Part shown: in pieces, positions 6,866 through 34,634 of the stretch
Position numbering within the stretch: position 1 is the stretch's first letter
Layout: each line of letters opens with the position of its first letter
From: Rhodobiaceae bacterium
GTDB lineage: Bacteria > Pseudomonadota > Alphaproteobacteria > Parvibaculales > Parvibaculaceae
Direction of reading: 5' to 3'
Length of the DNA stretch: 64,000 nt
Assembly: GCA_003330885.1 (NCBI GenBank)
Contig: CP030277.1
Span: 744,001-808,000 of the forward strand
Translations under genes and position numbers: made by a program
Notes under the pieces: model-generated
Told to the model about the DNA's origin: nothing
Seen by the model: only the letters and a program-made list of their open reading frames with translations
The model's database searches: none

Positions 6866-6871
6866 AAATCT

Positions 6872-13801: not shown

Positions 13802-13810
13802 GGGTGCCAA

Positions 13811-14479
13811 ATGAAAAATCTTTTGTCATCGCTCTTGTTGGCGACCCTGTTGGTTGGTGGGAACGCTATGGCCGATGAAATGCGTCAGACCGTCTATCAA
13901 GATCGGTCTGACGTAAGTCAGCTTATGTACAAGTGGGCCTTCTATAGGGACCATGGCATGTGGGATGAGTTGCGTACGACGTTCCACGCAGAAGGAACGA
14001 TCCAGGTCACATGGTTCACCGGAGAATTTTCTGAATTTGTGGATGCCTCCATAAAAATGGCAGAAGGCGGAGCTGTATCTGTCCACCAGATCAAGCCTTC
14101 AATTGTTGATGTGGTAGGCGACCGGGCCATTGCCATTACGCCGGCGTCCATCACAGCGAGAGCCAACCCCGGTGTGGAGTTAGACCTCTCGTCGGAAGCC
14201 TATTTCTTTGATTTTGTGGAACGAAGAGAGGGGGAGTGGAAGATCTTGCGTAGGATCTGCGTCTATCAGAAAGACCGTATGGATAGCGTGCTGCCGTCGC
14301 TCCGCTTCTGGCTCATGTCCTGGTTCGTTGACACGGAGACCTATGATCCAGCCTACAAGTTTCTTGGGGGTGCTCTTGCGATGCAGGGATATGCGATAGG
14401 ACCGCAGATTGTGGATAATACAAACGAGTCCCGCGCGCTTTATGCTGAAGGCCAAGCCTGGCTTACAGAAGAGAGATAG
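13811..14479 (+). CDS. secreted SnoaL/NTF2-like protein
   Basis: The 222 residues start with a signal peptide (MKNLLSSLLLATLLVGGNAMA). The middle shows the cone-shaped NTF2/SnoaL pattern seen in ring-hydroxylating dioxygenase small subunits, polyketide cyclases and dehydratases: DVSQLMYKWAFYRDHGMWDELRTTF, VSVHQI, and ITARANPG through GEWKILRRICVYQKDR. Members can be enzymes or simply bind hydrophobic ligands. It has an extra C-terminal segment of about 60 residues beyond the fold. Nine nt separate it from the sulfatase, so it may act on the desulfated product or stabilise it; this is inference. Confidence 0.78.
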   Translation: MKNLLSSLLLATLLVGGNAMADEMRQTVYQDRSDVSQLMYKWAFYRDHGMWDELRTTFHAEGTIQVTWFTGEFSEFVDASIKMAEGGAVSVHQIKPSIVDVVGDRAIAITPASITARANPGVELDLSSEAYFFDFVERREGEWKILRRICVYQKDRMDSVLPSLRFWLMSWFVDTETYDPAYKFLGGALAMQGYAIGPQIVDNTNESRALYAEGQAWLTEER

Positions 14480-17909: not shown

Positions 17910-19199
17910 ATGCGTAGAGACCCATTCATCAAGATTGATCAGCTGATCGCTCGCTGGGCGAGAGGCCTGGCAGCGCCTGTATTGGCGTGCCTTCTCGTTG
18001 TGAGTGGCTTGGGGCTGGCAGGGCCCGCAGTAGCTGAAGGGCCGGCAGTGACGAGCGCCAAAGCGCTTGTCTCAAACCTGCGCCTTGGTGAGCAGGGCGA
18101 TGTGACCCGGCTCGTTATCGATTTTGGCCAGGGCACAAGTGTTCCCCAGAACGTTTTCACCCTGGCAGATCCCTACCGCGTGGTAATCGATCTGCAGGAT
18201 GTCAATTTTCAGTTGCCCGCGGAAGCAGGCAAGACCGGACGAGGACTGGTTACCGGTTTTCGGTACGGACAGTTTCAAGAGGGCCTCTCCCGCATCGTGG
18301 TCGATGCAACAGGGCCAGTAAAAATCTCCCGTCATTTTGCCTTGCCGGCTCAAAGCGGCTTTGGGCATCGCGTCGTTGTGGACTTGCAGGCAGCCACGCC
18401 AGCGGAGTTTGCGCAGAGCGTGGGCCTTGGCCGTCCGATCGCCGCGCCAACGGCCGCCGCGCCACCTGTGTCGACACCCAGAGAGCCAACAGCAGACATT
18501 GACCGGAAACGGGTCATCGTCGTTGATGCGGGCCATGGTGGTGTTGACCCGGGGACCCATGGTCAGTCTGGGGCGCTTGAAAAAGACGTCGTTCTGGCAT
18601 TTGCCAAAGAGTTTGGCGCGCAGCTGCGGGCAACCGGCCGCTACGAAGTTCATCTCACCCGCGACACAGACCGCTTCATCCCGTTGCGCGAACGGGTAAA
18701 CATCGCGCGTCGACAGAACGCTGACCTGTTCCTCTCCATTCACGCGGACGCCATTGACCGCCGGGGTGTGAGCGGCATGTCGATTTACACCCTGTCTGAA
18801 AACGCATCTGATAAAGAAGCTGCCGCGCTGGCTGCCAAGGAAAACAGGTCTGACGTCATTGCTGGGGTGGACCTGCACGGCGAGTCCTCAGAAGTCACAG
18901 ATATTCTCATCGACCTGGCGCAGCGCGAAACGAAAAACTTCTCCGTGCGCTTTGCCCGCACCGTTGTGCGCAATGCGGAAGGGGTGACACCGCTCCTTCA
19001 ACGTACGCATCGGTTTGCGGGCTTCCGCGTCCTAAAGGCGCCGGACGTTCCCTCAGTTCTTGTAGAACTGGGCTTCCTCACCAACCGATCTGATGAACGT
19101 AATCTCACAACCACCAGCTGGCGCCGACGCGTGGCGGGGGCGCTTGTGAAATCAGTCGACAGCTATTTTGGCGAGCGACTGGCTGAAGGCACGTACTAA
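17910..19199 (+). CDS. N-acetylmuramoyl-L-alanine amidase (AMIN + Amidase_3)
   Basis: Periplasmic zinc amidase that cleaves stem peptides from peptidoglycan during cell separation. The 429 residues comprise an export signal with a long n-region (to about 43), an AMIN peptidoglycan- or envelope-targeting domain (about 50-160), an Ala/Pro linker, and an Amidase_3 domain (about 200-425). Zinc ligands appear as His209 (VVDAGHGG), Glu224 (LEKDVVLA) and His278 (SIHAD), with the catalytic Glu in VLVELGFLTN. The layout matches AmiC-type enzymes. It ends directly against the convergent tetR gene with no gap. PBP1A is encoded 10 kb downstream rather than adjacent. Confidence 0.95.
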   Translation: MRRDPFIKIDQLIARWARGLAAPVLACLLVVSGLGLAGPAVAEGPAVTSAKALVSNLRLGEQGDVTRLVIDFGQGTSVPQNVFTLADPYRVVIDLQDVNFQLPAEAGKTGRGLVTGFRYGQFQEGLSRIVVDATGPVKISRHFALPAQSGFGHRVVVDLQAATPAEFAQSVGLGRPIAAPTAAAPPVSTPREPTADIDRKRVIVVDAGHGGVDPGTHGQSGALEKDVVLAFAKEFGAQLRATGRYEVHLTRDTDRFIPLRERVNIARRQNADLFLSIHADAIDRRGVSGMSIYTLSENASDKEAAALAAKENRSDVIAGVDLHGESSEVTDILIDLAQRETKNFSVRFARTVVRNAEGVTPLLQRTHRFAGFRVLKAPDVPSVLVELGFLTNRSDERNLTTTSWRRRVAGALVKSVDSYFGERLAEGTY

Positions 19200-19802
19200 C
19201 TAGGCACGCGCAATCGCGATGGCGGCGGCTTTTAGTTGTTCTGTGACTGCCTTCCGGCTCTTAGCCTGTGGGCGTCCGGGTGCTACGAACAAACCGACAC
19301 CTTCAAACATAGATGTGATGACGGTTGCTTTTGTTTCCAATTGTGATTTGGAATCATTTGGCGAAATCTGACCGATGATCTTGCGGACAATGCGTCGTTC
19401 GCTTTCATGCGCCTTGTTGACGGTGTCTGCGACATAGGCATTTCGCCCGGTGAATGCCCATAGCTCCCAGATGAGGATTGAACCTTCATCTGTCTGATAG
19501 TCGTCGGAAATATACTGAGCGAACGCCCCGAGTTGCTCTTCGGGCGTCTGACCGGGTTCCACCCTCTCATCAAGCCCGGCGACATAATCCTCATACTGTG
19601 CGTCGACGAGCGCGTTGATCAATGTCTCTTTGGTCGTGAAATAGTGCTGTAGATTACTCAGGCTCATGTCGAGTTTGGCGGCGACACGGCGCATTGTTAG
19701 CGCCTCAGCACCTTCATGGATCAACATCTCTCTGGTCGCCGACAGAATCTCCTCTGTGCGGCGAACGCCTTTGGCATAGGGCTGTCGTACGGCGGTGTTC
19801 AT
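19200..19802 (-). CDS. TetR-family transcriptional regulator
   Basis: The 200 residues have an N-terminal helix-turn-helix (about 12-58: ILSATREMLIHEGAEALTMRRVAAKLDMSLSNLQHYFTTKETL in pattern) and a divergent helical ligand domain. HYF in the recognition helix is typical. It is divergent from the Rieske oxygenase gene at 19938, with two direct-repeat motifs and a perfect inverted repeat between them, the common arrangement for a repressor of the neighbouring catabolic gene. Ribosome site is weak. Ligand unknown. Confidence 0.93.
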   Translation of the reverse strand: MNTAVRQPYAKGVRRTEEILSATREMLIHEGAEALTMRRVAAKLDMSLSNLQHYFTTKETLINALVDAQYEDYVAGLDERVEPGQTPEEQLGAFAQYISDDYQTDEGSILIWELWAFTGRNAYVADTVNKAHESERRIVRKIIGQISPNDSKSQLETKATVITSMFEGVGLFVAPGRPQAKSRKAVTEQLKAAAIAIARA

Positions 19803-19830
19803 GTCATTGGTCTATCTCTGGAAAATGGGT

Positions 19831-19880
19831 CGGTCAACCTAAATTGATTGACAAAAAGGTCATTTGACCTAAATTGAGGT
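19831..19880 (+). promoter_or_regulatory. promoter and candidate TetR operator for the Rieske gene
   Basis: ACCTAAATTGA occurs at 19837-19847 and again at 19867-19877, exactly 30 bp apart. Between and overlapping them is AGGTCA-TT-TGACCT (19857-19870), an inverted repeat. A plausible promoter is TTGACA (19848-19853) and TAAATT (19870-19875) with a 16-bp spacer, so a bound repressor would cover it. A related AATTGACA motif is found before the GST gene at 22028-22060. Confidence 0.55.
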
Positions 19881-19937
19881 TCTTGAGGTGTTGTCGCTGT
19901 GCCAAACAGTGAGACCTAGATACAAGGAGAGCACATT

Positions 19938-20999
19938 ATGTTTGTTCACCGCACATGGTACTGGGCCGGCTGGTCACATGACCTGAAGTCAAAACCAGTA
20001 CGCAAAAAGATCTTGGGGCGGCAGGTTTTGCTCTTCCGCGACTCGACGGGTCTCGTGCGAGCAATGGATGCAATGTGTCCGCACCGCGGGGCAGACCTGT
20101 CAAAAGGCAAAATCATTGATGACTGCGTGCAGTGCCCATTCCACGGAATGAAGTTCAACGTATCGGGCAAGTGTATCGAAATCCCTTCCCAGCCGGCTGA
20201 TGAGCGGATTCCTGCAAGCGCCCGGGTTGACGTTTTCCCAATCCGTGAACGTGACGGGATTGTTTGGATCTGGATGGATCATCAGGCTGTGCCTAGCCAT
20301 GAACCACCGGCTTGTGAGGTTTTTTCACCGGCAAAGAAAACGCATGCTCATCGCTATTGGACACGGCATCAGGAGGGCGATTTTGTGCTCACCGTAGAGA
20401 CGGCGCTGGAAGACAGTCACGTACCGTTCCTTCACAAGGCAACATTCGCTTTTCCCAAGGTTCGGGTGCCACCTTACAAGTTTGAACACCATGCCAATGG
20501 TCGCGGTTTCACCGCTCGATATGACAAAGCTGCGGGATGGTGGATCGACACGGGGCTACCGACCACCAGGAAACTGCAAAAGCATGTCGAGGCGATTGGC
20601 GGTAATCAAAAAGCAGAGTGGTTCATGGGAGGGCATGTGCGGCAGCATTTTGGTGGCGGCACCGTCGCCGGGATTTTTGTGACGCCAAGCGATGAACGCC
20701 ACGTCTGGTTCGCGATTGCTTCTGCCGCAGCAAACAATACGTTCGCTAAGAAGGTGGTCAACGCCATGGGTCTTTCCGGACTCGGCTTGATCGCCAACAA
20801 GGTCTTTGACGAAGATGAGGATGCGATCCGGGATCTCATATTGACAGACCGACCGGGCGGCCTGGAGCGGCCTGTCTTCCAGATCTCAGATGCGATCTGC
20901 TCGGAGTTTCGAAAAATGTATCGGCACTATTTGCGCCAAGAGGGGCGTGAATGGGCTGTCTCGGATACTCTCCATGAGCGGATAAATCAGGCTCAGTAA
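19938..20999 (+). CDS. Rieske [2Fe-2S] oxygenase, alpha-subunit type
   Basis: Non-heme iron oxygenase component of 353 residues. The Rieske cluster ligands are Cys47 and His49 (CPHRGADLSKG) and Cys66 and His69 (CPFHG). The mononuclear iron site shows LEDSHVPFLH with His161 and His166. The domain size is that of the vanillate/chlorobenzoate/steroid monooxygenase-like branch rather than naphthalene-type enzymes. AAGGAGA precedes the ATG. No ferredoxin reductase or beta subunit is adjacent, so electrons must come from a reductase encoded elsewhere. It is controlled, by inference, by the divergent TetR. Confidence 0.93.
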   Translation: MFVHRTWYWAGWSHDLKSKPVRKKILGRQVLLFRDSTGLVRAMDAMCPHRGADLSKGKIIDDCVQCPFHGMKFNVSGKCIEIPSQPADERIPASARVDVFPIRERDGIVWIWMDHQAVPSHEPPACEVFSPAKKTHAHRYWTRHQEGDFVLTVETALEDSHVPFLHKATFAFPKVRVPPYKFEHHANGRGFTARYDKAAGWWIDTGLPTTRKLQKHVEAIGGNQKAEWFMGGHVRQHFGGGTVAGIFVTPSDERHVWFAIASAAANNTFAKKVVNAMGLSGLGLIANKVFDEDEDAIRDLILTDRPGGLERPVFQISDAICSEFRKMYRHYLRQEGREWAVSDTLHERINQAQ

Positions 21000-21122
21000 G
21001 GATTGGTCCTAGACTTTGATGCTCTTCATCAGAAACACGATTATGTCGGCACCCATGTGCCTCGGCGAGCGGTACGCCGAAGGCACCTGCTAGGCGCGCC
21101 TCCGACCGACTTAGTTGCTCCG

Positions 21123-21974
21123 CTACCGTTGTGCTTCGGCTGCTAACACCATCATTTTGTACGCTGTCTCGTGTGCTGAATTCTGATTTTGTCCTGTAAC
21201 AAACCGGCGCTCCTCGTCGATCACTACATGGGTCGCAAAGAAGTCGAGAAAAGCCGATCGGCTTTCATAAACGGCACCAGCATTCCTGAGTTCTGTTTCA
21301 GGGTGCATCGGGGTCATCTTAATTCCCAGCTCTTCAAGCTGCTTGTTGGTCACGCCTGCAATCCGCCGTCCTGCAATCAGCGGCGCACCTTCTGTGTCGC
21401 GAGCATTGATCAATCCCAAAGCCCCGTGACACACAGACCCGATGATCGGTGTCTGGGCAGCATAAGCATCGCTGATTTTGTCCCCAAGCACTTGCGAGTA
21501 GCCGAGGTCATAAGCGGCGCCCCAACCGCCAGACATGAAGATGATGTCGTACCCGGCAAAATCGAGATCATCGATGCGTTTTGAATTGGTGACTTTCGCC
21601 TGGAGGTCAGGGTCATCCAGAAAACGATTATCCTCCGGGGTTTTGATCATGAACAACAAGGTTTGAGGGTCTATAGGAATCTCACCGCCTTTGACGCTGG
21701 CAACATCCACATCCATTCCTGCATCCAGAAACTTGTAGTAGGCGATGGTCAACTCGGATGCCATCACACCAGTTGGATCCCCTGTGGTTTCACCAGGCGC
21801 ATTCAGCACCCCATGGTTGGTGGCGATGACCAGAGCCCGCTTGCCGGAGAGATCAATCGCCTCACCGGGATAGGTGGGGTGAAGGCCTGCGGTATGGAGG
21901 AGCGTTGGCAGAGCAACCAGAAAGAGACCGACTAAAACAGCCAGGCAACCTGCGATAAGTCCGAGTTTTTTCAT
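21123..21974 (-). CDS. membrane-anchored DJ-1/PfpI (class I glutamine amidotransferase-like) protein
   Basis: The 283 residues begin with an uncleaved-looking hydrophobic segment (about 5-28), then a DJ-1/PfpI fold. The nucleophile elbow GSVCHGALGL gives Cys182 and His183, and Glu74 in MASELTIAYY is placed like the acidic residue of Hsp31/DJ-1 proteins. This suggests a chaperone, deglycase or hydrolase acting outside or at the membrane. It is convergent with the Rieske gene and divergent from the GST gene, sharing with the latter an intergenic region holding inverted repeats. Substrate not known. Confidence 0.85.
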   Translation of the reverse strand: MKKLGLIAGCLAVLVGLFLVALPTLLHTAGLHPTYPGEAIDLSGKRALVIATNHGVLNAPGETTGDPTGVMASELTIAYYKFLDAGMDVDVASVKGGEIPIDPQTLLFMIKTPEDNRFLDDPDLQAKVTNSKRIDDLDFAGYDIIFMSGGWGAAYDLGYSQVLGDKISDAYAAQTPIIGSVCHGALGLINARDTEGAPLIAGRRIAGVTNKQLEELGIKMTPMHPETELRNAGAVYESRSAFLDFFATHVVIDEERRFVTGQNQNSAHETAYKMMVLAAEAQR

Positions 21975-22027
21975 GGCGATATGCTCCGGTCAGGGGGTGT
22001 TCAGCAAAAATCTCCAGACATCTAGAC

Positions 22028-22060
22028 AATTGACATTTGCTATGTCAATTTAAATTGACA
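22028..22060. promoter_or_regulatory. operator-like inverted repeat between the DJ-1-like and GST genes
   Basis: AATTGACAT (22028-22036) and ATGTCAATT (22042-22050) are exact reverse complements around TTGCT, and a third half, AATTGACA, follows at 22053-22060. The position between divergent starts suggests one regulator serving both. The half-site resembles the AATTGA core in front of the Rieske gene. Confidence 0.5.
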
Positions 22061-22100
22061 CTAAGAGCGTCATTTGTTTTGCAGGTGAGGAAACCAATCT

Positions 22101-23258
22101 ATGTCTGAAGCCCCCTACACCCTCTATGGAATTTCTGGTTCGCTTTATACCGGGAAGGTGCGGGCTTATTTGCGCCATCACGGCCTGGCGTTTGAAGAAC
22201 GCGGCGCAGGGCATCCCGATTTTGCAGCTGAGATTGTCCCGAAAGTTGGGCGCATGATCATGCCTGTTGTCGTCGCAGCGGATGGTTCAATCCTTCAGGA
22301 TGGAACGGACATTCTTGACTATTTCGAACAACGAAATCTCGGCAAGCATTCGATCGTGCCGGAGAACGCTGTTTTGCGTGTTGTTACTCATCTGTTCGAA
22401 CTGTTTGGTGGCGAGGGCTTGTTGCGGCCTGCCATGCATTACCGCTGGAACTTCGACGAACATAATCTGCCCTTCATCAAAAATTTTTTCGCTGAGGCGA
22501 TGCCTGGATCTCTGAATGAGAAAGAGGCAGGCGACATGTTTGATTTCGCCAGCGGCCGTATGCGCAATGCCGCCGTCGTATTTGGCGTTGTGCCCGAGAC
22601 GATGAAAACCATCGAGGCGGCCTATCAGGATTTTCTAAAACGGTTTGATGCTCATCTGGCAGTGTCCGCGTTCCTCCTTGGTGGCCAGGCGACTATTGGC
22701 GACTATGGCCTGTTCAATCCGCTTTTCGCCCATCTCGGTCGGGACCCCTATCCGGCCGCGATGATGAAGCGAGTTGCACCGCGTGTTTTCAGATGGACCG
22801 AGCTTATGAATGGGCCGGAAACTTATGTGGACCATAGACGCGCGCAAGCCAATCAGGATCTGTTCAGTTCAGATGCGATGCCTGAAACGTTGAAAGACTT
22901 GATGCGGTATGTCGCTGAAGAATATCTCAGTGAAATTACAGCCCATGTGGTTTACGCCAACAACTGGCTGGCCGAGGGTCCCGACATTGAACCCGGCACC
23001 AATGGGTTGGACGACCCGGCTCAACGCGGCATCGGCATGGCTGAGTTCAATTGGCGCGGACATGAGATCAAGACTGCCGTGATGCCGTATCGTTTCTATC
23101 TGCTGCAGCGGTTGACGGATTGTTTTGCCCAAGCAGGCGAGGCAGATCAAAAAGCAATTCGCGAATTGTTTGCGGAGACTGGACTGGAAACCATGCTGGA
23201 CCTTCGCACGACGCGGCGTGTGGAACGGGCGAACCACCTGGAAGTGTGGGGGGAATAA
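22101..23258 (+). CDS. glutathione S-transferase family protein
   Basis: 385 residues. The N-terminal 80 or so form a thioredoxin-like GST domain: TLYGISGSLYTGKVRAYLRHHGLAFEE in pattern, then VPVVVAADGSILQDGTDILDYFE, the glutathione-binding region. The rest is an extended helical C-terminal domain with TIGDYGLFNPLFAHL, longer than the usual GST length of 200-230. GAGG precedes the ATG. It is followed 3 nt later by the dehalogenase-like hydrolase, so the two are co-translated in effect. In this context a detoxification or glutathione-dependent catabolic step is plausible. Confidence 0.85.
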   Translation: MSEAPYTLYGISGSLYTGKVRAYLRHHGLAFEERGAGHPDFAAEIVPKVGRMIMPVVVAADGSILQDGTDILDYFEQRNLGKHSIVPENAVLRVVTHLFELFGGEGLLRPAMHYRWNFDEHNLPFIKNFFAEAMPGSLNEKEAGDMFDFASGRMRNAAVVFGVVPETMKTIEAAYQDFLKRFDAHLAVSAFLLGGQATIGDYGLFNPLFAHLGRDPYPAAMMKRVAPRVFRWTELMNGPETYVDHRRAQANQDLFSSDAMPETLKDLMRYVAEEYLSEITAHVVYANNWLAEGPDIEPGTNGLDDPAQRGIGMAEFNWRGHEIKTAVMPYRFYLLQRLTDCFAQAGEADQKAIRELFAETGLETMLDLRTTRRVERANHLEVWGE

Positions 23259-23261
23259 GCA

Positions 23262-24212
23262 ATGGAGTTTCGTCGAACACCAGATGAATGTTTTGAGAAC
23301 CTAGCGGGCTATCCTTTTTCGCCAAACTATGTCGAGGTGTCTGACTTCGAGGGCGGCACCTTGCGCATGAACTATGTGGATGAGGGCCCGCGTGATGGGG
23401 AGCCGGTTGTCATGATCCATGGCAACCCCACCTGGTCCTACATGTGGCGCAAACTGATCCCGGTCCTCGCAGAGGCAGGTTACCGCGCAATCGCGATTGA
23501 CATGATCGGGATGGGGCGCTCTGACAAGCCCACAAAGATGAGCGACTACACCATAGACCGCCATGAAAAGTGGGTTGCGGAAGCGCTGTTCGAGAAGCTC
23601 GACCTCACCAATGCCCACTTCATTCTGCACGATTGGGGTGGGATCATCGGTCTGCGTGCGATTGCCGATCATCAGGACCGGGTGAACAGCATCATCATGT
23701 CCAACACGGGGATACCTGTCCTCGACCCAAGTGCGCCAATCAAAAAGATGGCACGGCCAGGGGCGGGCATGCTACGGGCATTTCAACTCTACGTGCGCTA
23801 CAAAAAGAACTGGCAGCATTGGAAGATGCTTTCAAAGATTGTGAAGTCCGACATGCCTGCTGAAGACGTTGCGGGGTTTGCCGCTCCTTATCCGGACAAG
23901 GCATACCTGACAGGCAATCGCCAGTTCACGCAGATGCTGCCCACGCGGAATGACAACCCAATCCTGGTCGAAAACTGGCACGCGCTGGAAAAGCTGAAGG
24001 CTTTTGAAAAACCCTTCCTCAACCTCTTTTCGGACAAGGACCAGATTGCGCCCAAAGGACACAATACCGTGCGCCCAGCTATTCCCGGAGCGCAATCGAT
24101 CGAGCCCATCATTTTAAAGGGCGGCAGCCATTTTTTGCTGGAAGATATTCCGGAAGCTTATGCACACGAGGTCATCCAATTTCTTAAGTCACAGCGGGGA
24201 ACCAAGGCATGA
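23262..24212 (+). CDS. haloalkane dehalogenase-like alpha/beta hydrolase
   Basis: 316-residue alpha/beta hydrolase. The features of haloalkane dehalogenases are present: HGNPTWSY (53-60) with the halide-binding Asn, the nucleophile Asp124 followed by Trp125 in LHDWGG, a catalytic acid Asp260 in FSDKDQIAP, and His290 in GGSHFLLEDIPE. The acid after the later strand resembles the HLD-I subgroup. Related Asp-nucleophile hydrolases include fluoroacetate dehalogenases and epoxide hydrolases, so dehalogenation is likely but not proven. The start has a GGGGG ribosome site. It overlaps the next gene by four bases. Confidence 0.87.
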   Translation: MEFRRTPDECFENLAGYPFSPNYVEVSDFEGGTLRMNYVDEGPRDGEPVVMIHGNPTWSYMWRKLIPVLAEAGYRAIAIDMIGMGRSDKPTKMSDYTIDRHEKWVAEALFEKLDLTNAHFILHDWGGIIGLRAIADHQDRVNSIIMSNTGIPVLDPSAPIKKMARPGAGMLRAFQLYVRYKKNWQHWKMLSKIVKSDMPAEDVAGFAAPYPDKAYLTGNRQFTQMLPTRNDNPILVENWHALEKLKAFEKPFLNLFSDKDQIAPKGHNTVRPAIPGAQSIEPIILKGGSHFLLEDIPEAYAHEVIQFLKSQRGTKA

Positions 24213-24826
24213 CGACGACCCAAGAACGCTCACTCGAAGGTTTGATGCAGGCTGCGCTTCCAGAAGGCGGGTTTTTCGCGCCAGTCTCCGACAATTATTA
24301 TATGGAAGTCACGGACCGTAGCACCGGGTTGGTTTGGATGAGCAGTATGCCCGTAACCGCTCAACAATATGAAGAAATGGAAGTCGAAGCCCCTTTGACG
24401 AAGACCTTGTTTGCACGAGGCTCCATGGACGCCTTTGCCTTTTTCCATTCGCCGGGCCTGCCTGAGCATCCGCTACGAGAGAGGGTGATTGCGGGGCTCC
24501 GCTGTATCAATGTTGCAGCAATGGGAAAAGTTACACCACCGACAGACCCACGCGGGCCGCTGGTGGCAATGGTTGAAAAAGCCCACAGGCTGGGTTTTGA
24601 AGCAGGGCGTACATTGACCATTCTGTCTCTTCCCGACGGCGACTATGTCGGAACGCTCGGTGAGCCTGATGCCGATGACAACATCGTGCTGCCGGATGGG
24701 GGCGCCCTAAAGAAAGTGTCGTTGACCTCTCCGCAAATTGTTGAATTGCCAAACCCGACGCGCTGCTTTTTCTGGGGCCTGGGCGATGGAGACCTGCGAA
24801 GCTTTCAGGGTCCGGTCACTTTGTAG
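24209..24826 (+). CDS. conserved hypothetical protein coupled to the dehalogenase-like gene
   Basis: I do not recognise the family. The 205 residues are soluble, with no signal peptide or membrane segment, and contain few cysteines. Its ATG overlaps the hydrolase stop (ATGA), indicating tight translational coupling and probably a shared process. Possible roles include a small accessory or binding protein for the substrate handled by the GST and the hydrolase. It ends 95 nt before the next gene. Confidence 0.7.
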   Translation: MTTTQERSLEGLMQAALPEGGFFAPVSDNYYMEVTDRSTGLVWMSSMPVTAQQYEEMEVEAPLTKTLFARGSMDAFAFFHSPGLPEHPLRERVIAGLRCINVAAMGKVTPPTDPRGPLVAMVEKAHRLGFEAGRTLTILSLPDGDYVGTLGEPDADDNIVLPDGGALKKVSLTSPQIVELPNPTRCFFWGLGDGDLRSFQGPVTL

Positions 24827-24921
24827 GGGTACCAAGTACCTTGCTGTTGGGCCTGGCTACTCTGACGCAGAATTTAATCTGGATTTTCGACTAAGAGCCC
24901 GCGCCCGGGCAGGAGTGCATG

Positions 24922-26004
24922 ATGGATATCACTGAAATTTGGATCGATCGAAAAGACTTTCGTAAGACGAAGATCGTGACCGGGCAATCAGAGTCCCTTG
25001 CCGACGGCGACGTTCTCGTCCGGATCGACAAGTTTGCGCTCACGTCCAACAATGTGGGCTATGCGCTCTCTGGCGATTTCATCGGCTATTGGGGCTATTA
25101 TCCAACTGGAGAGGACGGTTGGGGCAAGCTCACGGTCTGGGGTATCGCTGAAGTTGTTGAGTCACGCTCGCCGGAGATTAAGGTGGGCGAACGCCTCTAT
25201 GGCTTCTTCCCCATGGCCAGCCATGTTGTTTTGAAAGCGGGCAACATTAGTGACGCTGGGTTTACCGATGTGGCCGCGCATCGGAAGGACTTGCCAGACC
25301 TCTATAACCAATATCAGCGAACGGCAGGGGGACCAGCCTACCTTTTGGCACTTGAGGATGAGCGTTGCCTTCTGTTTCCGCTCTTCATGACAGCTTTTGT
25401 TCTGGCTGACTATCTCAACGACAACCAGTATTTCGATGCTCAACAGATATTGATTGGTTCTGTTTCCTCGAAGACAGGCTTTGCCCTGGCGCATTTCCTG
25501 GCAAACGACCCTGCGTTTGAAGGTAAGGTCATTGGCCTCACCTCTCCCTCAAATGCAGGCTTTGTGGAGCGCTTGGGAAATTGCGACCAGGTTGTTGTTT
25601 ATGGCCAGGAAGAAGCTTCCATTGCCAATGCACCCTCTGTCTTCGTGGACATGTCCGGCGATGGACCGCTGAAGAAAAAACTTCATGAGTTCCTCACCGA
25701 CGATATGCAAAAGAGCGTGAGTGTAGGCGGAACTCATTGGGACGCTGAGCGGGTCACCGATGAACTCCCAGGCTCACAGCCTGAATTTTTCTTTACACCA
25801 GCTCATATCGCCAAACGTGATGCTGACTGGGGAGCGGGTGTCCTGTTTGAACGGGCAAACCAGGCAGGGGCAGATCTGGGTGAGATTGTGAAGAAGGATA
25901 TTGATGTGGAGGTCATCAAGGGCGCTGAGGCAGCGCAGCAGATCTGGCTCGATATGCTCGACAATAAGGTCACAGCCAACCGGGGCATCATGGTGTCGAT
26001 CTGA
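24922..26004 (+). CDS. DUF2855 family protein (MDR-like fold)
   Basis: 360 residues matching the DUF2855 family: an N-terminal part resembling medium-chain dehydrogenases (ALTSNNVGYALSGDFIGYWGYYP in pattern, and KVGERLYGFFPMASHVVL), then a Rossmann-like half with IGSVSSKTGFALAHFL. It lacks the zinc ligands of alcohol dehydrogenases. The family has no assigned reaction. ATG 24922 is preferred over 24919 because AGGAG is then better spaced. It follows the hydrolase-hypothetical pair on the same strand and may be part of the same transcript. Confidence 0.85.
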   Translation: MDITEIWIDRKDFRKTKIVTGQSESLADGDVLVRIDKFALTSNNVGYALSGDFIGYWGYYPTGEDGWGKLTVWGIAEVVESRSPEIKVGERLYGFFPMASHVVLKAGNISDAGFTDVAAHRKDLPDLYNQYQRTAGGPAYLLALEDERCLLFPLFMTAFVLADYLNDNQYFDAQQILIGSVSSKTGFALAHFLANDPAFEGKVIGLTSPSNAGFVERLGNCDQVVVYGQEEASIANAPSVFVDMSGDGPLKKKLHEFLTDDMQKSVSVGGTHWDAERVTDELPGSQPEFFFTPAHIAKRDADWGAGVLFERANQAGADLGEIVKKDIDVEVIKGAEAAQQIWLDMLDNKVTANRGIMVSI

Positions 26005-26195
26005 CCCTGACCTGACCTTGATAATCCCAAACAGGATTAAGCCTTAGAGGCATCCATAGGTGAGGGAGACGCCTTCTGAATCTTCATTGCACACGAAGAT
26101 AAGCCCGACAATTCGGTTGTACGCGCTATACTCGGCACCATCGATAATTTCGGTTCTTTGGGAATTTCAATCAGCATTTTGGGGGAGCAAGCACG

Positions 26196-27413
26196 ATGGG
26201 ATTTGAGCAAACACCACGAGTCATTGAGTTGAATACGCGCCTGGAAGATTTCATGAGGGAGCATATTTACCCAAGAGAGCATGACTACGAAGAGTTTACA
26301 CTCGACCCGGCCAATCTCTGGCAAACGCCCGATTGGTTTGATGAGCTTCGGAGTAAGGCCAAGGAAGCTGGATTGTGGAACCTGTTTCTGCCGGAAGAAT
26401 ATGAACCCTGGAGTCCGGGCCTGACCAATCTTGAGATTGCGACGCTTTTTGAGACGATGAGCAAAGTCATCTGGGCCCAACCAATCTTTAATTGCAGCGC
26501 GCCGGACCGCGGCAACATGGAGGTGCTGGCGAAGTACGGCACGCCGGCGCAGCAGGAAGAATGGCTGACACCGCTCCTGGAAGGTGACATCCGGTCTGCT
26601 TACGCCATGACCGAGCCCCAGGTTGCCTCCAGCGATGCCACCAATATGGAATTGGAAATCAAGCGGGACGGCGACGAGTATGTGTTGAACGGTCGTAAAT
26701 GGTGGACGACGGGCGCGGTTGGGCCGCGCTGCAAGCTCATGTTGGTTATGGGGCTGACAGACGCCAACGCATCCCGGCACCGCCGGCATTCGACGATTTT
26801 GGTGCCGCGCGACACGCCTGGAGTTGAACTTGTCCGGCCCCTGCGGGCTTTCGACAATCTTCACTCACCAGGAGGCGAGGCTGAACTCTTGTTCAAAGAT
26901 GTCCGCGTTCCTGTGACCAACATGATCAAGGGGGAAGGCTGCGGCTTCGAGATTGCGCAAGGGCGATTGGGCCCTGGCAGATTCCAATATGCCATGGGCT
27001 TTGTCGGTCTTGCTCAGCGTTGCCTTGAGCTCATGTGTGAGCGCGCGGAAGAGCGCGTTGCTTTTGGAGAGAAGCTCAGTAAAAAAACCAGCGTGCAGCA
27101 CGAGATTGCGCGCAGTCGGTGTGACATTGAGCAATGTCGTTTGCTGACATTGCAGGCTGCAGATGTCATGGACAAAGAAGGGCTTGATGCGGCTCGGCCT
27201 TATATCTCGATGGTGAAAATTGTTGCGCCGAGAATGGCGCAGGATGTCGCCGACCGCGCCATGCAGGTGTTTGGCGGGAAGGGCGTCTGTCAGGACACGC
27301 TGATCCCGGCCGTGTTTACCCGTGCAAGGTTTTGTCGGATTGCTGATGGTCCCGATGAAGTGCACATGTCGCAGCTGGGCAAAATGACAATGCGAGATCT
27401 GGTGGCAAGTTGA
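26196..27413 (+). CDS. acyl-CoA dehydrogenase (ACAD10/11-like)
   Basis: FAD-dependent dehydrogenase of acyl-CoA, 405 residues. The FAD-binding stretch YAMTEPQVASSDATNMEL is characteristic of the ACAD10/11 group, and QVFGGKGVCQDTLIP lies near the C-terminus. AGRFQYAMG and the ARFCRIADGPDEVHM pattern are also typical. GGGGGAG precedes the ATG. Within an otherwise xenobiotic-looking region this suggests that a side chain or a carboxylated product is degraded by beta-oxidation-like steps. Upstream 190 bp contain no gene. Confidence 0.93.
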   Translation: MGFEQTPRVIELNTRLEDFMREHIYPREHDYEEFTLDPANLWQTPDWFDELRSKAKEAGLWNLFLPEEYEPWSPGLTNLEIATLFETMSKVIWAQPIFNCSAPDRGNMEVLAKYGTPAQQEEWLTPLLEGDIRSAYAMTEPQVASSDATNMELEIKRDGDEYVLNGRKWWTTGAVGPRCKLMLVMGLTDANASRHRRHSTILVPRDTPGVELVRPLRAFDNLHSPGGEAELLFKDVRVPVTNMIKGEGCGFEIAQGRLGPGRFQYAMGFVGLAQRCLELMCERAEERVAFGEKLSKKTSVQHEIARSRCDIEQCRLLTLQAADVMDKEGLDAARPYISMVKIVAPRMAQDVADRAMQVFGGKGVCQDTLIPAVFTRARFCRIADGPDEVHMSQLGKMTMRDLVAS

Positions 27414-27465
27414 TGGGTAAGGCTTAGTGAGGGAGCATCTGAAAGCGCGCCCCAGCCTTGCTGGG

Positions 27466-28068
27466 TTAGGCTTTGATGCTCCCCATGAGCGTGGCGATCA
27501 TATCCTTGACCAGCTGTTGGGGGGAGCCGAAGTCGAGGCTCTCGATATTGATGGGGAGCGCCAGCGCGCCATGAATGCCTGCCCAAAGTTGGTGGGCGAT
27601 CCGGTCTGCTGAACCTTGTTTAATCTGGCCGTTCTTTTGTCCAGCAATCACAGCGTCGCAGAGCATCTGTTTAAACTCAACGGGCGCCGGGGCAGGGCCT
27701 AGTCCCGTTTCCTGTTCTTGCCCGACAAACAAAAACGCACCTCGGAGGATATCGGGATTGGCCAAGGCGAAATCTGCATAGCCTTTCAACAAAGCCTCAA
27801 CTGCGTCTGCCGGATCTGCAGTCGCCTTGACCATAGCCTGCAGCCGCACCATCTCTTCCGCGACAGGTTCTGCCCAGAGGGAGCGCATCAATTCTGGTAG
27901 GTTGGCGTAGTAGCTGTAGAGCGTTCCCACTGACACGCCAGCCTTCACGGCGATGGCGCGGGCAGATGTTCCAGCGACGCCCTTTTCTGCATACACGGCA
28001 GCGGCTGCAGAGCGGATTTTATCCCGTATCTGCGCCCGCTGTTCTGGTGTTGCGGCTGTTCTTGCCAT
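27466..28068 (-). CDS. TetR-family transcriptional regulator
   Basis: 200 residues with the HTH in the first 60 (IRSAAAAVYAEKGVAGTSARAIAVKAG, then VGTLYSYYANLPELM in pattern). A ribosome site AAGGAAAGG lies before the ATG. It starts 30 nt after the COQ4-like gene on the same strand, so both are read from the promoter at 28837-28865, where a palindrome overlaps the -35. That arrangement predicts autoregulation. It is convergent with the acyl-CoA dehydrogenase gene, which it might also control. Confidence 0.93.
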   Translation of the reverse strand: MARTAATPEQRAQIRDKIRSAAAAVYAEKGVAGTSARAIAVKAGVSVGTLYSYYANLPELMRSLWAEPVAEEMVRLQAMVKATADPADAVEALLKGYADFALANPDILRGAFLFVGQEQETGLGPAPAPVEFKQMLCDAVIAGQKNGQIKQGSADRIAHQLWAGIHGALALPINIESLDFGSPQQLVKDMIATLMGSIKA

Positions 28069-28098
28069 CTTACCTTTCCTTGAACCTTGGCTTGGTGC

Positions 28099-28800
28099 TT
28101 ACGCCGCCAATGCCTCTGTGTTCAAGTTCCATTTCCGGCGCAGGTCGACAAGCGGTGTGTCAATCTCGTCTTCCCACCGCTCGAACTGAATGTTGGGAGA
28201 CGTGCGGCCAAACTGCCATCCGTCGCAAATGGCATCCATACCCCAGGTGATGATTTTCGGGTCGAGATAAGCCATGTGTGCGGTCGTTACCGCCATGCGC
28301 ATCGCGTGATAGGGGAATTGAAGCTGAGCAAGATAGAAGGCGGCAACGGCCAGTTCTCCCGCATAGGTTGCTTCATATCCCGTCAGCACATGCATGATGT
28401 CATGGACCTGGAAGCCACGAACCATAAAGAAGCTGAGCTCATCTGGCAGGCGATCCAGCTTTCCTGAGCTCGTCAGTTCTTCATTGAATTTCTTGTAGTT
28501 CCGGCCAAGGTTCGCCTCGAGCTTATTGTCGACAATGAACTTGTGATAACCGTGGCCGAGCGTGCCCGGCGCACATCTCGCCAGACGCTCTAGCGGGATG
28601 GGGTCGGCGAGAAAGCGTTCATCCAAAAACTTTTTCGTCTCAGGCAACTCGTTCAATAGCTCCAAATATGAGTCGATGGCCGACTGCGGTGCTTCCGCCC
28701 ACCAATCATGAAAGAGAAAGTAGACGCCATACTCGAGCGGTCTGTTGACTGAGTGGATGAACTTGTCGGCGAAATCTTTGTCAATTGAAGGGGCGGTCAT
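28099..28800 (-). CDS. COQ4-like protein
   Basis: 233 residues of the COQ4 family, which supports the ubiquinone-synthesis complex in eukaryotes and, recently, C1 decarboxylation/hydroxylation of the ring. The metal-binding signature His133-Asp134-x-x-His137 followed by Glu149 (VHDIMHVLTGY, AGE) is complete. Bacterial homologues near TetR genes are often uncharacterised paralogues, not the ubiquinone enzyme itself. GAGGAAA precedes the ATG. The gene is regulated with the adjacent tetR, which would be odd for a housekeeping ubiquinone gene, so a dedicated role in degradation or membrane adaptation is possible. Confidence 0.87.
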   Translation of the reverse strand: MTAPSIDKDFADKFIHSVNRPLEYGVYFLFHDWWAEAPQSAIDSYLELLNELPETKKFLDERFLADPIPLERLARCAPGTLGHGYHKFIVDNKLEANLGRNYKKFNEELTSSGKLDRLPDELSFFMVRGFQVHDIMHVLTGYEATYAGELAVAAFYLAQLQFPYHAMRMAVTTAHMAYLDPKIITWGMDAICDGWQFGRTSPNIQFERWEDEIDTPLVDLRRKWNLNTEALAA

Positions 28801-28836
28801 CAGCGGTTTCCTCAGGTTGTCATCGGCATCGAGATC

Positions 28837-28865
28837 TATATAGGCTATTAAATGAACATGTTCAA
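28837..28865 (-). promoter_or_regulatory. promoter with palindromic operator for the COQ4-like/tetR operon
   Basis: On the minus strand TTGAAC (28865-28860) is followed after exactly 17 bases by TATATA (28842-28837), close to consensus for a housekeeping promoter. The palindrome TGAACATGTTCA (28853-28864) overlaps the -35 element, a typical TetR-family repression geometry. Confidence 0.65.
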
Positions 28866-29008: not shown

Positions 29009-31639
29009 TTGGCCCTATTTTCACAAGACTACATCTCGCGGTTGCGCACAGCCGTGGTAAACCTATGGTCTGGCATCGTGTCGCGACGCCGGATGAATGG
29101 GGCTGAGCCGGTGGCATCACCGGCACCGAATGCGGCGAAAGGGGCCAATCGAAGCATGTTGCGTGTGTTTGCCACTCTATTTGCGGGTCTGGTTGTGCTG
29201 GGCTTGGGCGCAGCGCTGGCTGGATTCTACATGCTATGGCGTCTTTCCAACGACCTACCGTCTTACGATCATCTGGCAGACTATGCGCCGCCCATCATGA
29301 CCCGCGTCCACGCAGGCGATGGAAGCCTGATTGCGGAATATGCGCGCGAGCGGCGCATCTTTGTGCCCATCGAAACGATCCCCGAACATGTGGTGCAGGC
29401 ATTCCTCGCCGCTGAGGACAAGAATTTCTACACCCACTCTGGCGTCGACTCCCGCGGCATCATGCGCGCGGTTGTGACGAATGTCTGGAATGTGATGAAT
29501 GATCGGCGCCTTGTGGGCGCATCGACCATCACACAGCAGGTGGCCAAAAACTTCCTTCTGACCAGCGACGTCACTTTCCAGCGCAAAGTGACGGAGGCCT
29601 TGCTCGCGTTAAAGCTTGAGCGGGCCTTCACCAAGGATCAGATTCTGGAGCTCTATCTCAATGAGATTTATTTGGGGCTTGGCTCTCACGGTGTGGCGGC
29701 TGCAGCACTCAACTATTTCGATAAGAGCCTGACCGAACTCAGCCTGGCGGACGCGGCCTATCTTGCAGCGCTGCCTAAGGCGCCAAACAATTACCATCCA
29801 TTCCGCCGTCGCGAAAAAGCGATCGGCCGCCGAAACTGGGTGATCGGGCGGATGCTCGATAATGGCTTTATCTCCACCTATCAGGCATCGGTCGCCCGCG
29901 CAGAAGATCTTGTGGTGACGCCTCGGGCGTTTGGGGCCCAGCTTGTTGAAGCAAACTATTTCGTGGAGCAGGTCCGCCGCGATCTGTATGAGCGCTACGG
30001 CGAAGAAAAGCTCTATGAAAGCGGCCTGTCAGTCAGAACGACCCTCGACACTAAAATGCAGGGCCAGGCACGTGATGCGTTGCGCCAGGGTCTGGTTGCC
30101 TATGACCAGCGCCATGGTTGGCGCGGGCCGGTTGACACGCTGGCACCGAACACCACCTGGACAACCGCGCTCGCTGAGATTGATATGGCGACGGATCTCG
30201 CCCCCTGGACACTCGCGACTGTGATCGGCCTGTCAGAAGACTATGCCAAAATTGGCTTGAGACCGACCCGGGAAGTTTCTGGTTCATTCCGCGATGAGAT
30301 TGTGACATCCACCATCCCGCTCGAGGACATGACCTGGGCGCGGAAATACATTGATGACAAGCGCGTCGGCGCTGAAGTGAAACGCCCACATGACGTGGTC
30401 TCTATTGGTGACATCGTCTATGTCGAGCCTGTCCTCGGTGAGGATGGCAAACCCACGCATTACGCACTGCGACAACTTCCGCAGGTGAATGGCGCCATTG
30501 TGGCGTTGGATGTTCACACCGGTCGTGTGCTAGCACTGCAAGGTGGGTTCTCCTACGAACTGTCTGAATTCAATCGGGCGGTACAAGCGACGCGGCAGCC
30601 GGGCTCTGCCTTCAAGCCCTTTGTCTATGCAGCAGCACTTGATCGCGGCTTTACGCCATCCAGCATGGTGCTTGACGCGCCCTTCGTGATGGACCAGGGA
30701 CCGGGGCTCGCGCTCTGGAAGCCGGAGAACTACGGGAACCGGTTCTACGGACCCTCCACATTGCGTCTGGGGATTGAGAAATCCCGAAACGTCATGACTG
30801 TGCGTCTGGCTCAAAACATTGGTATGGGAACGGTACGAGACTATGCCCGCCGCTTCGGGATCACTGACAATATGCCTCGCGTTCTTTCGATGGCGTTGGG
30901 AGCCGGCGAGACGACACTCCTGCGCATGACAAGTGCCTATGCCATGCTGGTAAATGGTGGCCGTCAGGTGACCCCAACGCTGATTGACCGAATTCAGGAC
31001 CGTCGAGGAACAACCGTGTTCCGTCACGACCAGCGGGCCTGTGACGGATGCGTCGCGGATGTATGGGAAAACCAGGAAACACCTGAGCTGCCCGATACCC
31101 GCGCTCAAGTGCTAAGTCCCCAAACCTCCTATCAGGTTGTCTCCATGCTAGAGGGGGTGGTTGAGCGCGGAACAGCCACATCCGTTCGTGCTGTTGGGCA
31201 TCCGCTAGCTGGCAAGACAGGGACAACCAACGATGAACGCGACGCATGGTTTGTTGGCTTTTCCTCTGACCTGGTGGTCGGCGTCTTTGTTGGCTTTGAC
31301 AGCCCCCGCCCTATGGGTCGTGGGGAAACCGGCGGCAAGGTCGCTGCGCCTATATTTAGAGACTTCATGACGGCTGCGCTCGCTGATACAGCGCCAGTTC
31401 CGTTCCGTATCCCAGCGGGCATCAACCTTGTCCGGGTGAATGCGAAAACAGGTCTGCTGGCGGGGCCAGGCGAAAGCAATGTCATCCTCGAAGCGTTCAA
31501 AGAGGGAACTGAGCCCCGGGCGGCAGAGCCGGTGAACAGTGGTGTGCCTGATCTGGGTGACATTGTCGGGCCAGATGGGCAACCGGTGACCTCAAGGACA
31601 TCGACGCCACTTGGCAATGGAACCGGCGGCCTTTACTGA
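29009..31639 (+). CDS. mrcA: penicillin-binding protein 1A (bifunctional peptidoglycan synthase)
   Basis: Class A PBP of 876 residues, inner-membrane anchored. After a cytoplasmic stretch and a transmembrane segment (about 53-77), the glycosyltransferase 51 domain shows the catalytic Glu136 in AAEDKNFYTHSG. An OB-like insertion follows, and the transpeptidase domain has SxxK at Ser533 (GSAFKPF), a KSRN motif and KTGTT at 736. The tail is Pro/Gly-rich. The start is uncertain: TTG at 29009 lacks a ribosome site, and ATGs at 29093 and 29156 would shorten only the cytoplasmic tail. A TTAACCAT motif (28990-28997) precedes it. Confidence 0.94.
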   Translation: MALFSQDYISRLRTAVVNLWSGIVSRRRMNGAEPVASPAPNAAKGANRSMLRVFATLFAGLVVLGLGAALAGFYMLWRLSNDLPSYDHLADYAPPIMTRVHAGDGSLIAEYARERRIFVPIETIPEHVVQAFLAAEDKNFYTHSGVDSRGIMRAVVTNVWNVMNDRRLVGASTITQQVAKNFLLTSDVTFQRKVTEALLALKLERAFTKDQILELYLNEIYLGLGSHGVAAAALNYFDKSLTELSLADAAYLAALPKAPNNYHPFRRREKAIGRRNWVIGRMLDNGFISTYQASVARAEDLVVTPRAFGAQLVEANYFVEQVRRDLYERYGEEKLYESGLSVRTTLDTKMQGQARDALRQGLVAYDQRHGWRGPVDTLAPNTTWTTALAEIDMATDLAPWTLATVIGLSEDYAKIGLRPTREVSGSFRDEIVTSTIPLEDMTWARKYIDDKRVGAEVKRPHDVVSIGDIVYVEPVLGEDGKPTHYALRQLPQVNGAIVALDVHTGRVLALQGGFSYELSEFNRAVQATRQPGSAFKPFVYAAALDRGFTPSSMVLDAPFVMDQGPGLALWKPENYGNRFYGPSTLRLGIEKSRNVMTVRLAQNIGMGTVRDYARRFGITDNMPRVLSMALGAGETTLLRMTSAYAMLVNGGRQVTPTLIDRIQDRRGTTVFRHDQRACDGCVADVWENQETPELPDTRAQVLSPQTSYQVVSMLEGVVERGTATSVRAVGHPLAGKTGTTNDERDAWFVGFSSDLVVGVFVGFDSPRPMGRGETGGKVAAPIFRDFMTAALADTAPVPFRIPAGINLVRVNAKTGLLAGPGESNVILEAFKEGTEPRAAEPVNSGVPDLGDIVGPDGQPVTSRTSTPLGNGTGGLY

Positions 31640-31724: not shown

Positions 31725-32853
31725 ATGCGCGCAGAAACGATAGCGATCGCGGACGAGATTAGAGACTCGTTGGCTTTGCTGAGGAGGCATCTTTGACTGG
31801 GATACCGCCCAGAAAAGGATGGACGAACTAAACGCGCGGTCTGAAGATCCAAGCCTGTGGGACAATCCCCAACAGGCTCAAGCGCTTATGCGTGAACGCA
31901 CAAAGCTTGAAGACAGCATCAAAACCTATCAAAGCCTCGAGGCGGAGCTGAACGACAATCTTGAGCTGATCGAGATGGGGGAAGCCGAGGGTGATGAGGA
32001 CGTCATCAAGGAGGCTGAGACAGCGCTCGAAGCCGCCCGCGATATCGCAGCGCGCCAACGTGTCCTGACACTCCTGTCTGGTGAGGCCGACGGCCTGGAC
32101 TCGTATGTGGAAATCCATTCCGGCGCAGGCGGTACGGAAAGCCAGGATTGGGCCTCCATGATGCTGCGCATGTACACAAGATGGGCTGAAGCCAAGGGGC
32201 ACAAGGTCGAGCTGATCGAACGCCATGACGGGGAAGAAGCGGGCATCAAGTCAGCGACCATCCTTGTTAAAGGTGAGGACGCCTATGGCTGGCTGAAAAC
32301 CGAAAGCGGCGTGCATCGGCTCGTGCGCATTTCGCCCTACGATTCTAATGCACGCCGCCACACAAGTTTCGCGTCTGTCTGGGTTTACCCGGCCATTGAT
32401 GACACGATTGAGATCGAAGTAAACGAAAGCGACTGTCGCATTGATACATACCGGGCGAGCGGCGCGGGCGGGCAGCATGTGAACACGACCGACAGTGCTG
32501 TGCGCATCACCCACGAACCGACAGGTATCGTGGTGCAATGTCAGAACGAACGCTCTCAGCACAAAAACCGGGCAACCGCCTGGGACATGTTGCGCGCCCG
32601 TCTTTATGAGGCCGAGCTGCAGCGCCGCGAAGAAGAAGCCAACGCGGAAGCCGCTTCAAAAACAGAAATCGGATGGGGCCACCAGATCCGCTCATACGTC
32701 CTGCAGCCCTATCAGATGGTCAAGGATTTGCGGACCGGCGTGGAAACAGGCAACCCGGATGGTGTACTTGATGGCGACCTCGATCCTTTCATGGCCGCAG
32801 CTCTCGCGGCTCGTGTGGACGGCACGACTGCCGAAGTCGCCGATTTGGATTAA
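31725..32853 (+). CDS. prfB: peptide chain release factor 2, expressed by +1 programmed frameshift
   Basis: RF2, which reads UAA and UGA. The first 23 codons ([20 protein letters not shown] and two more residues) end at CTT-TGA. A +1 shift at CTT (31791-31793) skips T31794 and continues with GAC TGG, giving [15 protein letters not shown] and 352 further residues, total 375. The GGQ catalytic motif is in [18 protein letters not shown]. The stop-codon recognition tripeptide reads SPY (RISPYDSN) where E. coli has SPF. AGAGGA precedes the ATG. This is autoregulation: low RF2 favours the shift. Its stop shares the bases TTAA with the convergent Rieske stop. Confidence 0.95.
31781..31797 (+). promoter_or_regulatory. 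prfB programmed +1 frameshift site
   Basis: GAGGAGGCATCTTTGAC: an internal Shine-Dalgarno-like GAGGAGG, a short spacer, then the slippery CTT followed by in-frame TGA and C. The E. coli prfB signal is AGGGGGTATCTTTGAC, so spacing and slip codon are conserved. Confidence 0.95.
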
Positions 32854-34599: not shown

Positions 34600-34634
34600 G
34601 GCAGCTCCTGAATTCATGAGAACCGTATGCGCGT

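Follow-up and report, generated by a model that had tools for sequence, protein, structure and literature searches.

A probably mobile accessory cassette with a variant haloalkane dehalogenase-family hydrolase between amiC and mrcA of a Rhodobiaceae bacterium

The window analysed here is a 64 kb stretch of the complete, 3.86 Mb genome of Rhodobiaceae bacterium (G000; contig CP030277.1, positions 744,001 to 808,000), and the region of interest, positions 19200-28865, lies between its amiC and mrcA genes. Three neighbouring gene units, not one, are stacked here at the same place in the chromosome. The middle unit, in which dj1 diverges from gst-hld-u205-DUF2855-acad, is read with moderate confidence from gene content and sequence comparison as an accessory cassette that has been exchanged horizontally and acts on a natural alkyl halide; it sits at a variable spot. 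Its most likely role would be hydrolytic halide removal from a natural organohalide.

Three gene units at one chromosomal spot

The flanking genes of the spot and the features of the cassette are as follows.

17910-19199, + strand: amiC, N-acetylmuramoyl-L-alanine amidase (Pfam Amidase_3), left flank of the variable spot
21123-21974, - strand: dj1, DJ-1/PfpI protein (Pfam) with an N-terminal hydrophobic segment, divergent from gst
22030-22048 and 22043-22060: overlapping palindromes TTGACAT-N5-ATGTCAA and TGTCAATTTAAATTGACA in the dj1-gst intergenic space, candidate operator of the divergent promoters
22101-23258, + strand: gst, 385-residue protein (GST385) like glutathione S-transferases (GST; GST_N_3, E 3e-9)
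23262-24212, + strand: hld, haloalkane-dehalogenase family hydrolase (NCBIfam NF002043)
24209-24826, + strand: u205, orphan protein whose open reading frame (ORF) starts inside the end of that of hld
24829-24894, + strand: 22-codon tail of a lost Y208 gene, a deletion scar seen in alignments to loci L004 and L128
24919-26004, + strand: DUF2855 protein (PF11017, E 2e-92)
26196-27413, + strand: acad, acyl-CoA dehydrogenase of ACAD11 type that lacks the HCMR motif
29009-31639, + strand: mrcA, penicillin-binding protein 1A, right flank of the variable spot

mrcA was matched in all 24 family relatives, and the interval before it was read in 20 of them, including the congener G001 (all but G010, G011, G013 and G021). 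Leaving aside G001, which carries the cassette, 18 relatives were read at both edges. In 16 of these (G005-G009, G012, G014-G020 and G022-G024) amiC adjoins mrcA, with 105-757 bp between the aligned ends and no match in the gap to any gene of the region. The remaining spots are occupied in different ways. G001 has, in order, tetR-GRDB-TauD-MFS, dj1/gst-hld-u205-reductase-Y208-DUF2855-acad and tetR2-coq4; G002 has dj1, 59 gst codons that run into the end of tetR2, then tetR2 and coq4; G003 has tetR-GRDB-TauD, tetR2 and coq4; and in G004, whose contig stops before amiC and is readable only on the tetR2-coq4-mrcA side, tetR2 and coq4 adjoin mrcA. In G000 the first unit is tetR1/rieske1, the second the cassette and the third coq4-tetR2. 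These units are regarded as separate because of this pattern of presence and absence, because a scar derived from the amiC end parts the first from the second, and because every unit carries a repeat or palindrome of its own upstream.

An earlier note on this DNA, made from the letters alone, had located every ORF that it named correctly, and its family calls hold: two TetR regulators, Rieske, DJ-1/PfpI, a GST of 385 residues, haloalkane-dehalogenase-like, DUF2855, acyl-CoA dehydrogenase and COQ4-like. Its label ACAD10/11-like is right by overall similarity, the nearest solved structures being ACAD11 (E 2e-121), and the 205-residue protein that it described as coupled is indeed an orphan whose ORF overlaps that of hld by 4 bp. 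One correction is that the G000 cassette already lacks two genes kept in G001.

Within the cassette, the genes from gst to acad lie on the same strand and are separated by 3, -4 (an overlap), 92 and 191 bp. The palindrome TTGACAT-N5-ATGTCAA occurs as a single exact copy in the G000 genome, with one-mismatch copies at four other places, and its arms carry no more than one change in G001, G002 and G262, the last a member of another family. The two palindromes between dj1 and gst are a good operator candidate.

Exchange, decay and selection

All genes of the cassette are present in order in G001, 75-98% identical to their G000 counterparts. Between u205 and DUF2855, G001 has two extra genes, a reductase (ADH_N_2) and Y208, which the ancestral cassette would also have contained. 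Both are gone from G000, where the Y208 tail remains and the end of u205 differs from that in G001. The same Y208-tail junction is found in G262, in which the cassette lies outside the amiC-mrcA spot. There, dj1, hld and u205 are 95%, 93% and 60% identical to those of G000, while gst and DUF2855 are broken, with 69 and 39 residues aligned, respectively. The dj1 of G001 is likewise 95% identical to that of G000, and that of G002 92%. In the hld tree, G000 groups with G262 (support 95/86), apart from its congener G001. The nucleotide identities of G000 follow the same order, at 0.889 to G262 vs 0.876 to G001 for hld and 0.895 vs 0.876 for dj1. Taken together, the shared scar, the tree, the nucleotide identities and the broken G262 genes point to horizontal exchange after the deletion of reductase and Y208, followed by gene loss.

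Synonymous divergence (dS) between G000 and G001 is 0.65-0.88 for dj1, hld, u205, DUF2855 and acad, and 1.0-1.3 for amiC, mrcA, coq4 and tetR2; the lower values in the cassette would fit a later exchange. The value for gst, 1.56, is out of line with its neighbours. The ratio of nonsynonymous to synonymous divergence (dN/dS) between G000 and G001 lies between 0.013 and 0.146 for the six cassette genes, which says that the intact genes are maintained by selection. Between G000 and G262, dN/dS is 0.055 for dj1 and 0.078 for hld; for u205, dS is saturated and the ratio is not computable.

The hydrolase and its halide site

Haloalkane dehalogenases (HLD) act through a catalytic Asp, Asp and His, and in subfamily I a Trp of the cap is the second halide-stabilising residue. 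To our knowledge, the native substrates of many of these enzymes are unclear. The product of hld scores 322.3 bits over residues 1-311 against the NF002043 cut-off of 265, and so passes the threshold of the haloalkane-dehalogenase family. Based on the alignment to three solved enzymes, it keeps D124 (in DWGG), W125, D260 and H290, and it departs from the cap Trp of subfamily I and from the HGEP Glu of the three reference structures, having Phe174 and Asn55 at those positions. Both changes are found in all five members of the clade to which it belongs (G000, G001, G262, G056 and G285), and Phe occupies the 174 position in none of the other 18 alignment rows. The clade is well separated: its support is 100/100, and the branch leading to it from the midpoint root measures 1.95 changes per column. 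An Asn plus Trp halide pair would be expected in subfamily II (HLD-II) or III; hld has Asn55 and Trp125, yet its nearest solved relatives are presumably not members of subfamily II.

In one reading, hld would belong elsewhere among the alpha/beta hydrolases, perhaps acting as an epoxide hydrolase or lactonase on oxidised algal lipids, with the whole cassette serving to degrade oxylipin-like compounds. The changed Glu and cap Trp positions in all five clade members and the long branch agree with this, and a reductase and an acyl-CoA dehydrogenase as partners would suit lipid enones. It is nevertheless judged to have a minor share of the probability, given that the NCBIfam haloalkane-dehalogenase score exceeds its cut-off, that the Asp acid and the His are kept and that Asn and Trp form the halide pair of HLD-II enzymes in the excerpt of PMC10619424. 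Given that pair, dehalogenase activity of hld via a rearranged halide site is likely.

The position of Asn55 divides the HLDs more widely. Among 20 non-reference HLDs it is Asn or Gln in 11 and Glu in nine, and a long GST lies near nine of the 11 amide enzymes vs none of the nine Glu enzymes (Fisher 3e-4, uncorrected for relatedness). These 20 include the enzymes of G001, G005, the Chlorohelix plasmid and G129 contig 16, which stand outside the 16 dehalogenase places considered below.

The long GST and its neighbours

The gst product matches GST_N_3 with 37.4 bits, above the Pfam cut-off of 22, and GST_C_2 below the cut-off of that family. Ser14 and Tyr16 are near-invariant in 18 aligned rows. 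A long GST adjoins the gene of the hld clade in all five genomes, one of them as a remnant.

The wider neighbourhoods of dehalogenase, GST385 and DUF2855 were tallied in a class sample of 385 genomes. A long GST lies within 4 kb of seven of the 16 dehalogenase places, with 0.12 expected on the assumption of uniform placement, which, as for all the expected neighbour counts, ignores relatedness. Flanks of about 1.5 kb per side were available at two places (G010 and G282), and one side was shortened at five (G285, G056, G376, G264 and G175). An alpha/beta hydrolase at L060 (38% over 144 residues) that clustered with the dehalogenases was excluded from the count as distant. Around DUF2855, with the G000 window counted and one short G002 gst remnant omitted from the GST list, four of 48 places have a long GST within 3 kb (0.30 expected) and eight have one within 10 kb (0.81 expected). 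DUF2855 (E<=1e-30) is present in 14 of the 16 genomes that have GST385 (E<=1e-60), against 1.6 expected and 39/385 overall. Since the long GST and the dehalogenase adjoin above uniform expectation, the two may plausibly act together on a halogenated compound.

When 23 GST loci were compared, four had a sulfatase, of PF00884 type in the three of these scanned against Pfam, four had Y208 (one by tblastn only) and four had a 227-residue type of unknown protein. In other alphaproteobacteria, GST385 occurs with Y208, plus sulfatase or DUF2855, in touching or overlapping runs (L067 8587-13269, L071 8111-11531 and L065 8063-9865). A plasmid record with a 36% identical GST has no dehalogenase or DUF2855 among its annotated neighbours, and a literature search combining dehalogenase, sulfatase, GST and Alphaproteobacteria found nothing.

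The cassette might still be a chance heap of general detoxification and lipid genes gathered between amiC and mrcA with no common substrate. The spot does gather cargo of unrelated kinds (tetR-GRDB-TauD in both G001 and G003, joined by MFS in G001; tetR1-rieske1 in G000; coq4-tetR2 in G000-G004), and cargo is readily lost from it. This explanation is considered unlikely: a member of another family has this run of genes away from the spot, a long GST also adjoins hld or DUF2855 elsewhere, and gst, hld and u205 are tightly packed, with a 3-bp gap and a 4-bp overlap.

Proposed mechanism and its weighing

In the organohalide cassette as proposed, a ligand-responsive repressor would leave the palindromic dj1-gst operator, and the genes from gst to acad would presumably be co-transcribed. 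The steps might then follow in this order. Asp124 of hld would attack the carbon-halogen bond of the putative substrate while Trp125 and Asn55 hold the halide, and water via His290/Asp260 would free the alcohol. Glutathione chemistry by the GST would deal with the compound itself or with a reactive product, and the carbon skeleton would be fed towards beta-oxidation by reductase-type proteins and the acyl-CoA dehydrogenase. DJ-1 would limit reactive carbonyl damage. Because two genes have been lost, the G000 route is a trimmed one and may, tentatively, be a reduced detoxification version. Of this picture, the gene layout, the joint transfer, selection on the intact genes, the deletion scars and the catalytic residues are shown by the sequences, and the release of halide, the substrate, the regulator, co-transcription and the sequence of steps are inferred.

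A number of observations weigh against this proposal. The gst of G000 is 75% identical to that of G001 beside neighbours of 94-95%, and u205 is 60% identical to that of G262 beside an hld of 93%. Because these two genes diverge far more than their neighbours, the cassette looks like a mosaic, as if gst and u205 alleles had been swapped within it. The gaps of 92 bp before DUF2855 and 191 bp before acad weaken the case for a single transcript, and the cassette includes no regulator gene. u205 is limited to three genomes among those searched. The putative link of DUF2855 to reductases consists of one weak profile match to a medium-chain reductase set (HHalign 93% probability, E 3e-7). The neighbour associations have limits as well. 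Nine of the 16 dehalogenase places have no GST nearby. The other seven include the G262 remnant and three places (G129, G161 and G264) with paralogues of 25.7-27% identity, two of them more than 1 kb away; the seven span about four lineages, so the association probabilities overstate independence. Twelve of the 16 close GST385 loci have no adjoining dehalogenase, although some contigs end nearby. In G262 roughly 1 Mb separates the intact GST385 from hld, and the DUF2855 genes of G056 and G285 are on another contig than the GST-hld pair.

A broader and highly speculative extension, to which little credence is given, is that the long GST and an amide-site (Asn/Gln) dehalogenase are central to an undescribed pathway for organohalides made naturally by algae, widely scattered among alphaproteobacteria. 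It is prompted by the 11 amide enzymes among 20 HLDs, by the proximity of nine of these 11 to a long GST, which the Glu enzymes lack, and by the sulfatase in four of 23 GST loci. A halogenated sulfated lipid such as a chlorosulfolipid would be a possible substrate, because the GST neighbours in several genomes include sulfatase, DUF2855 or Y208. The titles and abstract openings returned by a literature search on chlorosulfolipid breakdown describe no bacterial degradation. Relatives of the strain come from dinoflagellate cultures and have genomes of 3.8-3.9 Mb with 55.4-56.9% G+C, according to an excerpt of PMC10915500; an algal habitat for the G000 strain is a guess. If the chlorosulfolipid-like reading were true, it would name degraders for an algal lipid class.

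The find is real but modest. The accessory cassette is mobile and decaying, its target is probably an organohalide, and its variant of the dehalogenase merits an assay. The hld clade, with two halide-site positions changed together beside a long GST, offers partners and a short list of genomes for a natural-substrate search. Across a few related genomes, the locus displays the arrival of a cassette, its crossing between families and its gene-by-gene dismantling, with readable scars.

Neighbouring units and genes

The other two units have the following features.

19200-19802, - strand: tetR1, TetR regulator (TetR_N), divergent from rieske1
19838-19877: direct repeat of CCTAAATTGA, the second of the two copies starting 30 bp after the first, in the tetR1-rieske1 intergenic space, candidate TetR1 operator
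19938-20999, + strand: rieske1, Rieske non-haem iron oxygenase (Rieske, E 3e-22)
21062-21093, + strand: residual copy of the 3' end of amiC, lying between rieske1 and dj1, insertion scar
27466-28068, - strand: tetR2, TetR regulator, 30 bp downstream of coq4
28099-28800, - strand: coq4, COQ4-like protein (PF05019, E 2e-16)
28853-28864: palindrome TGAACATGTTCA upstream of coq4, candidate TetR2 operator

The first unit was seen only in G000. It is absent from the amiC-mrcA spot in G001-G003, a search of 41 genomes at E<=1e-30 matched rieske1 in none but G000, and no further copy of CCTAAATTGA is present on the + strand of the window. At the amiC-end scar the sequence matches the amiC-dj1 junction of G002 (81.5% over 146 bp), beginning within the amiC end and continuing into the spacer found after amiC in G002. 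Because this amiC 3' copy is left between rieske1 and dj1, the first unit appears to have been inserted at the amiC end. A like copy of the amiC 3' end lies between the MFS gene and dj1 in G001 (L004, about 6828-6880), and the simplest reading would be that each upstream module was inserted there. The amiC end may perhaps be a recurrent insertion site in the genus. The GRDB-like protein, TauD-type dioxygenase and TetR of G001 (L004 3365-5476) and G003 (L007 5661-7784), 79-89% identical, are a further cargo module.

The third unit is common to G000-G004, always by mrcA, and occurs without an intact cassette in G002, G003 and G004; it was not found in the G262 cassette stretch. TGAACATGTTCA is unchanged in four of G000-G004 and differs by a single base in the fifth.

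tetR1-rieske1 and coq4-tetR2 are neighbours of the cassette, not parts of it. The bracket of TetR and COQ4-like genes proposed in the earlier note does not stand as one unit, the true flanks being amiC and mrcA. Its undescribed route stands in part: gst, hld, u205, DUF2855, acad and dj1 do travel together (intact in G001, as remnants in G002, partly broken in G262), while the Rieske and COQ4-like genes belong to separate units, and the conserved synteny that it asked for is found for the core cassette and not for tetR1-rieske1. A single TetR-controlled route including the Rieske oxygenase and the COQ4-like protein, for which the physical adjacency of the genes in G000 speaks, is the least probable explanation, since rieske1 is unmatched in the G001 and G002 genomes and in 20 kb around the G262 cassette, tetR1 is unmatched in the loci read (G001, the spots of other relatives and the G262 stretch), coq4-tetR2 exists without the cassette, and the amiC-end scar parts rieske1 from dj1.

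Assignment of rieske1 as the 4beta-methylsterol monooxygenase SdmA was rejected, its NF052579 score being 59.6 bits over residues 6-117 against a cut-off of 600. A second Rieske oxygenase (Ring_hydroxyl_A) with an adjacent TetR lies by prfB (window 32850-34650); its C-terminal end also adjoins prfB in G001 and G002 (67-68% over the part read).

Two upstream candidates were set aside. The sulfatase at 12239-13801 is present in G001, G002 and G003 regardless of hld, and its identity to the sulfatases linked to a GST is about 28%. The gamma-glutamyltranspeptidase/aminotransferase pair (9372-12115, upstream) was considered for a mercapturate-like link and is ordinary: each of the 11 loci checked has one or both genes there, and most of these loci lack the cassette. 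The sulfatase and a SnoaL-like gene lie between the aminotransferase and rne (window 12239-14479); both are in G002 and G003, the latter with two sulfatases, the sulfatase is also in G001, and neither is in eight more distant loci.

Other cassette proteins and comparison with known systems

DUF2855 had no match among solved structures, and the paper library searched has none that names the domain. The AlphaFold models of DUF2855 and u205 (pLDDT, the predicted local distance difference test, 37 and 43) are both too poor for fold searches. Clear members of u205 are those of G000, G001 (82%) and G262 (60%); three further, partial matches (E 0.001-0.007) were set aside as chance. Pfam and structure look-ups gave no result for u205, nor did it have a plasmid match, and the structure look-up for Y208 was also without result.

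According to the excerpt of PMC12440821, the HCMR motif is tied to 4-phosphoacyl-CoA in mammalian ACAD10/11 and in bacterial LvaC, enzymes of 4-hydroxy acid catabolism. Like these enzymes, acad keeps the catalytic Asp (in the ADGPDEVH stretch; 8v3v has Asn in its place) and the Arg upstream of the motif. Unlike them, it reads YAMG at the positions aligned to HCMR, near the flavin, and the genes of the region include no kinase. Assignment of acad as a 4-hydroxy acid enzyme of this type was rejected, as the motif is not kept.

Among the more distant loci, G056, G285, G129, G161 and G264 resemble G000 in that a long GST lies close to an HLD whose Glu is replaced by Asn or Gln, and differ from it in that these genomes have no u205 match. 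The GST of G161, G264 and one G129 locus is just 25.7-27% identical to the gst of G000, and in G056 and G285 the pair is followed by a TetR gene and a sulfatase, unlike in G000.

The nearest solved relatives of hld are 4mj3, 6f9o and 5esr, presumably DmrA, DpcA and DccA of subfamily I, which align over the full length with E values from 2e-73 to 5e-64. They share with hld the Asp nucleophile in DWGG, the Asp acid and the His, but they have the HGEP Glu and the cap Trp where hld has Asn55 and Phe174.

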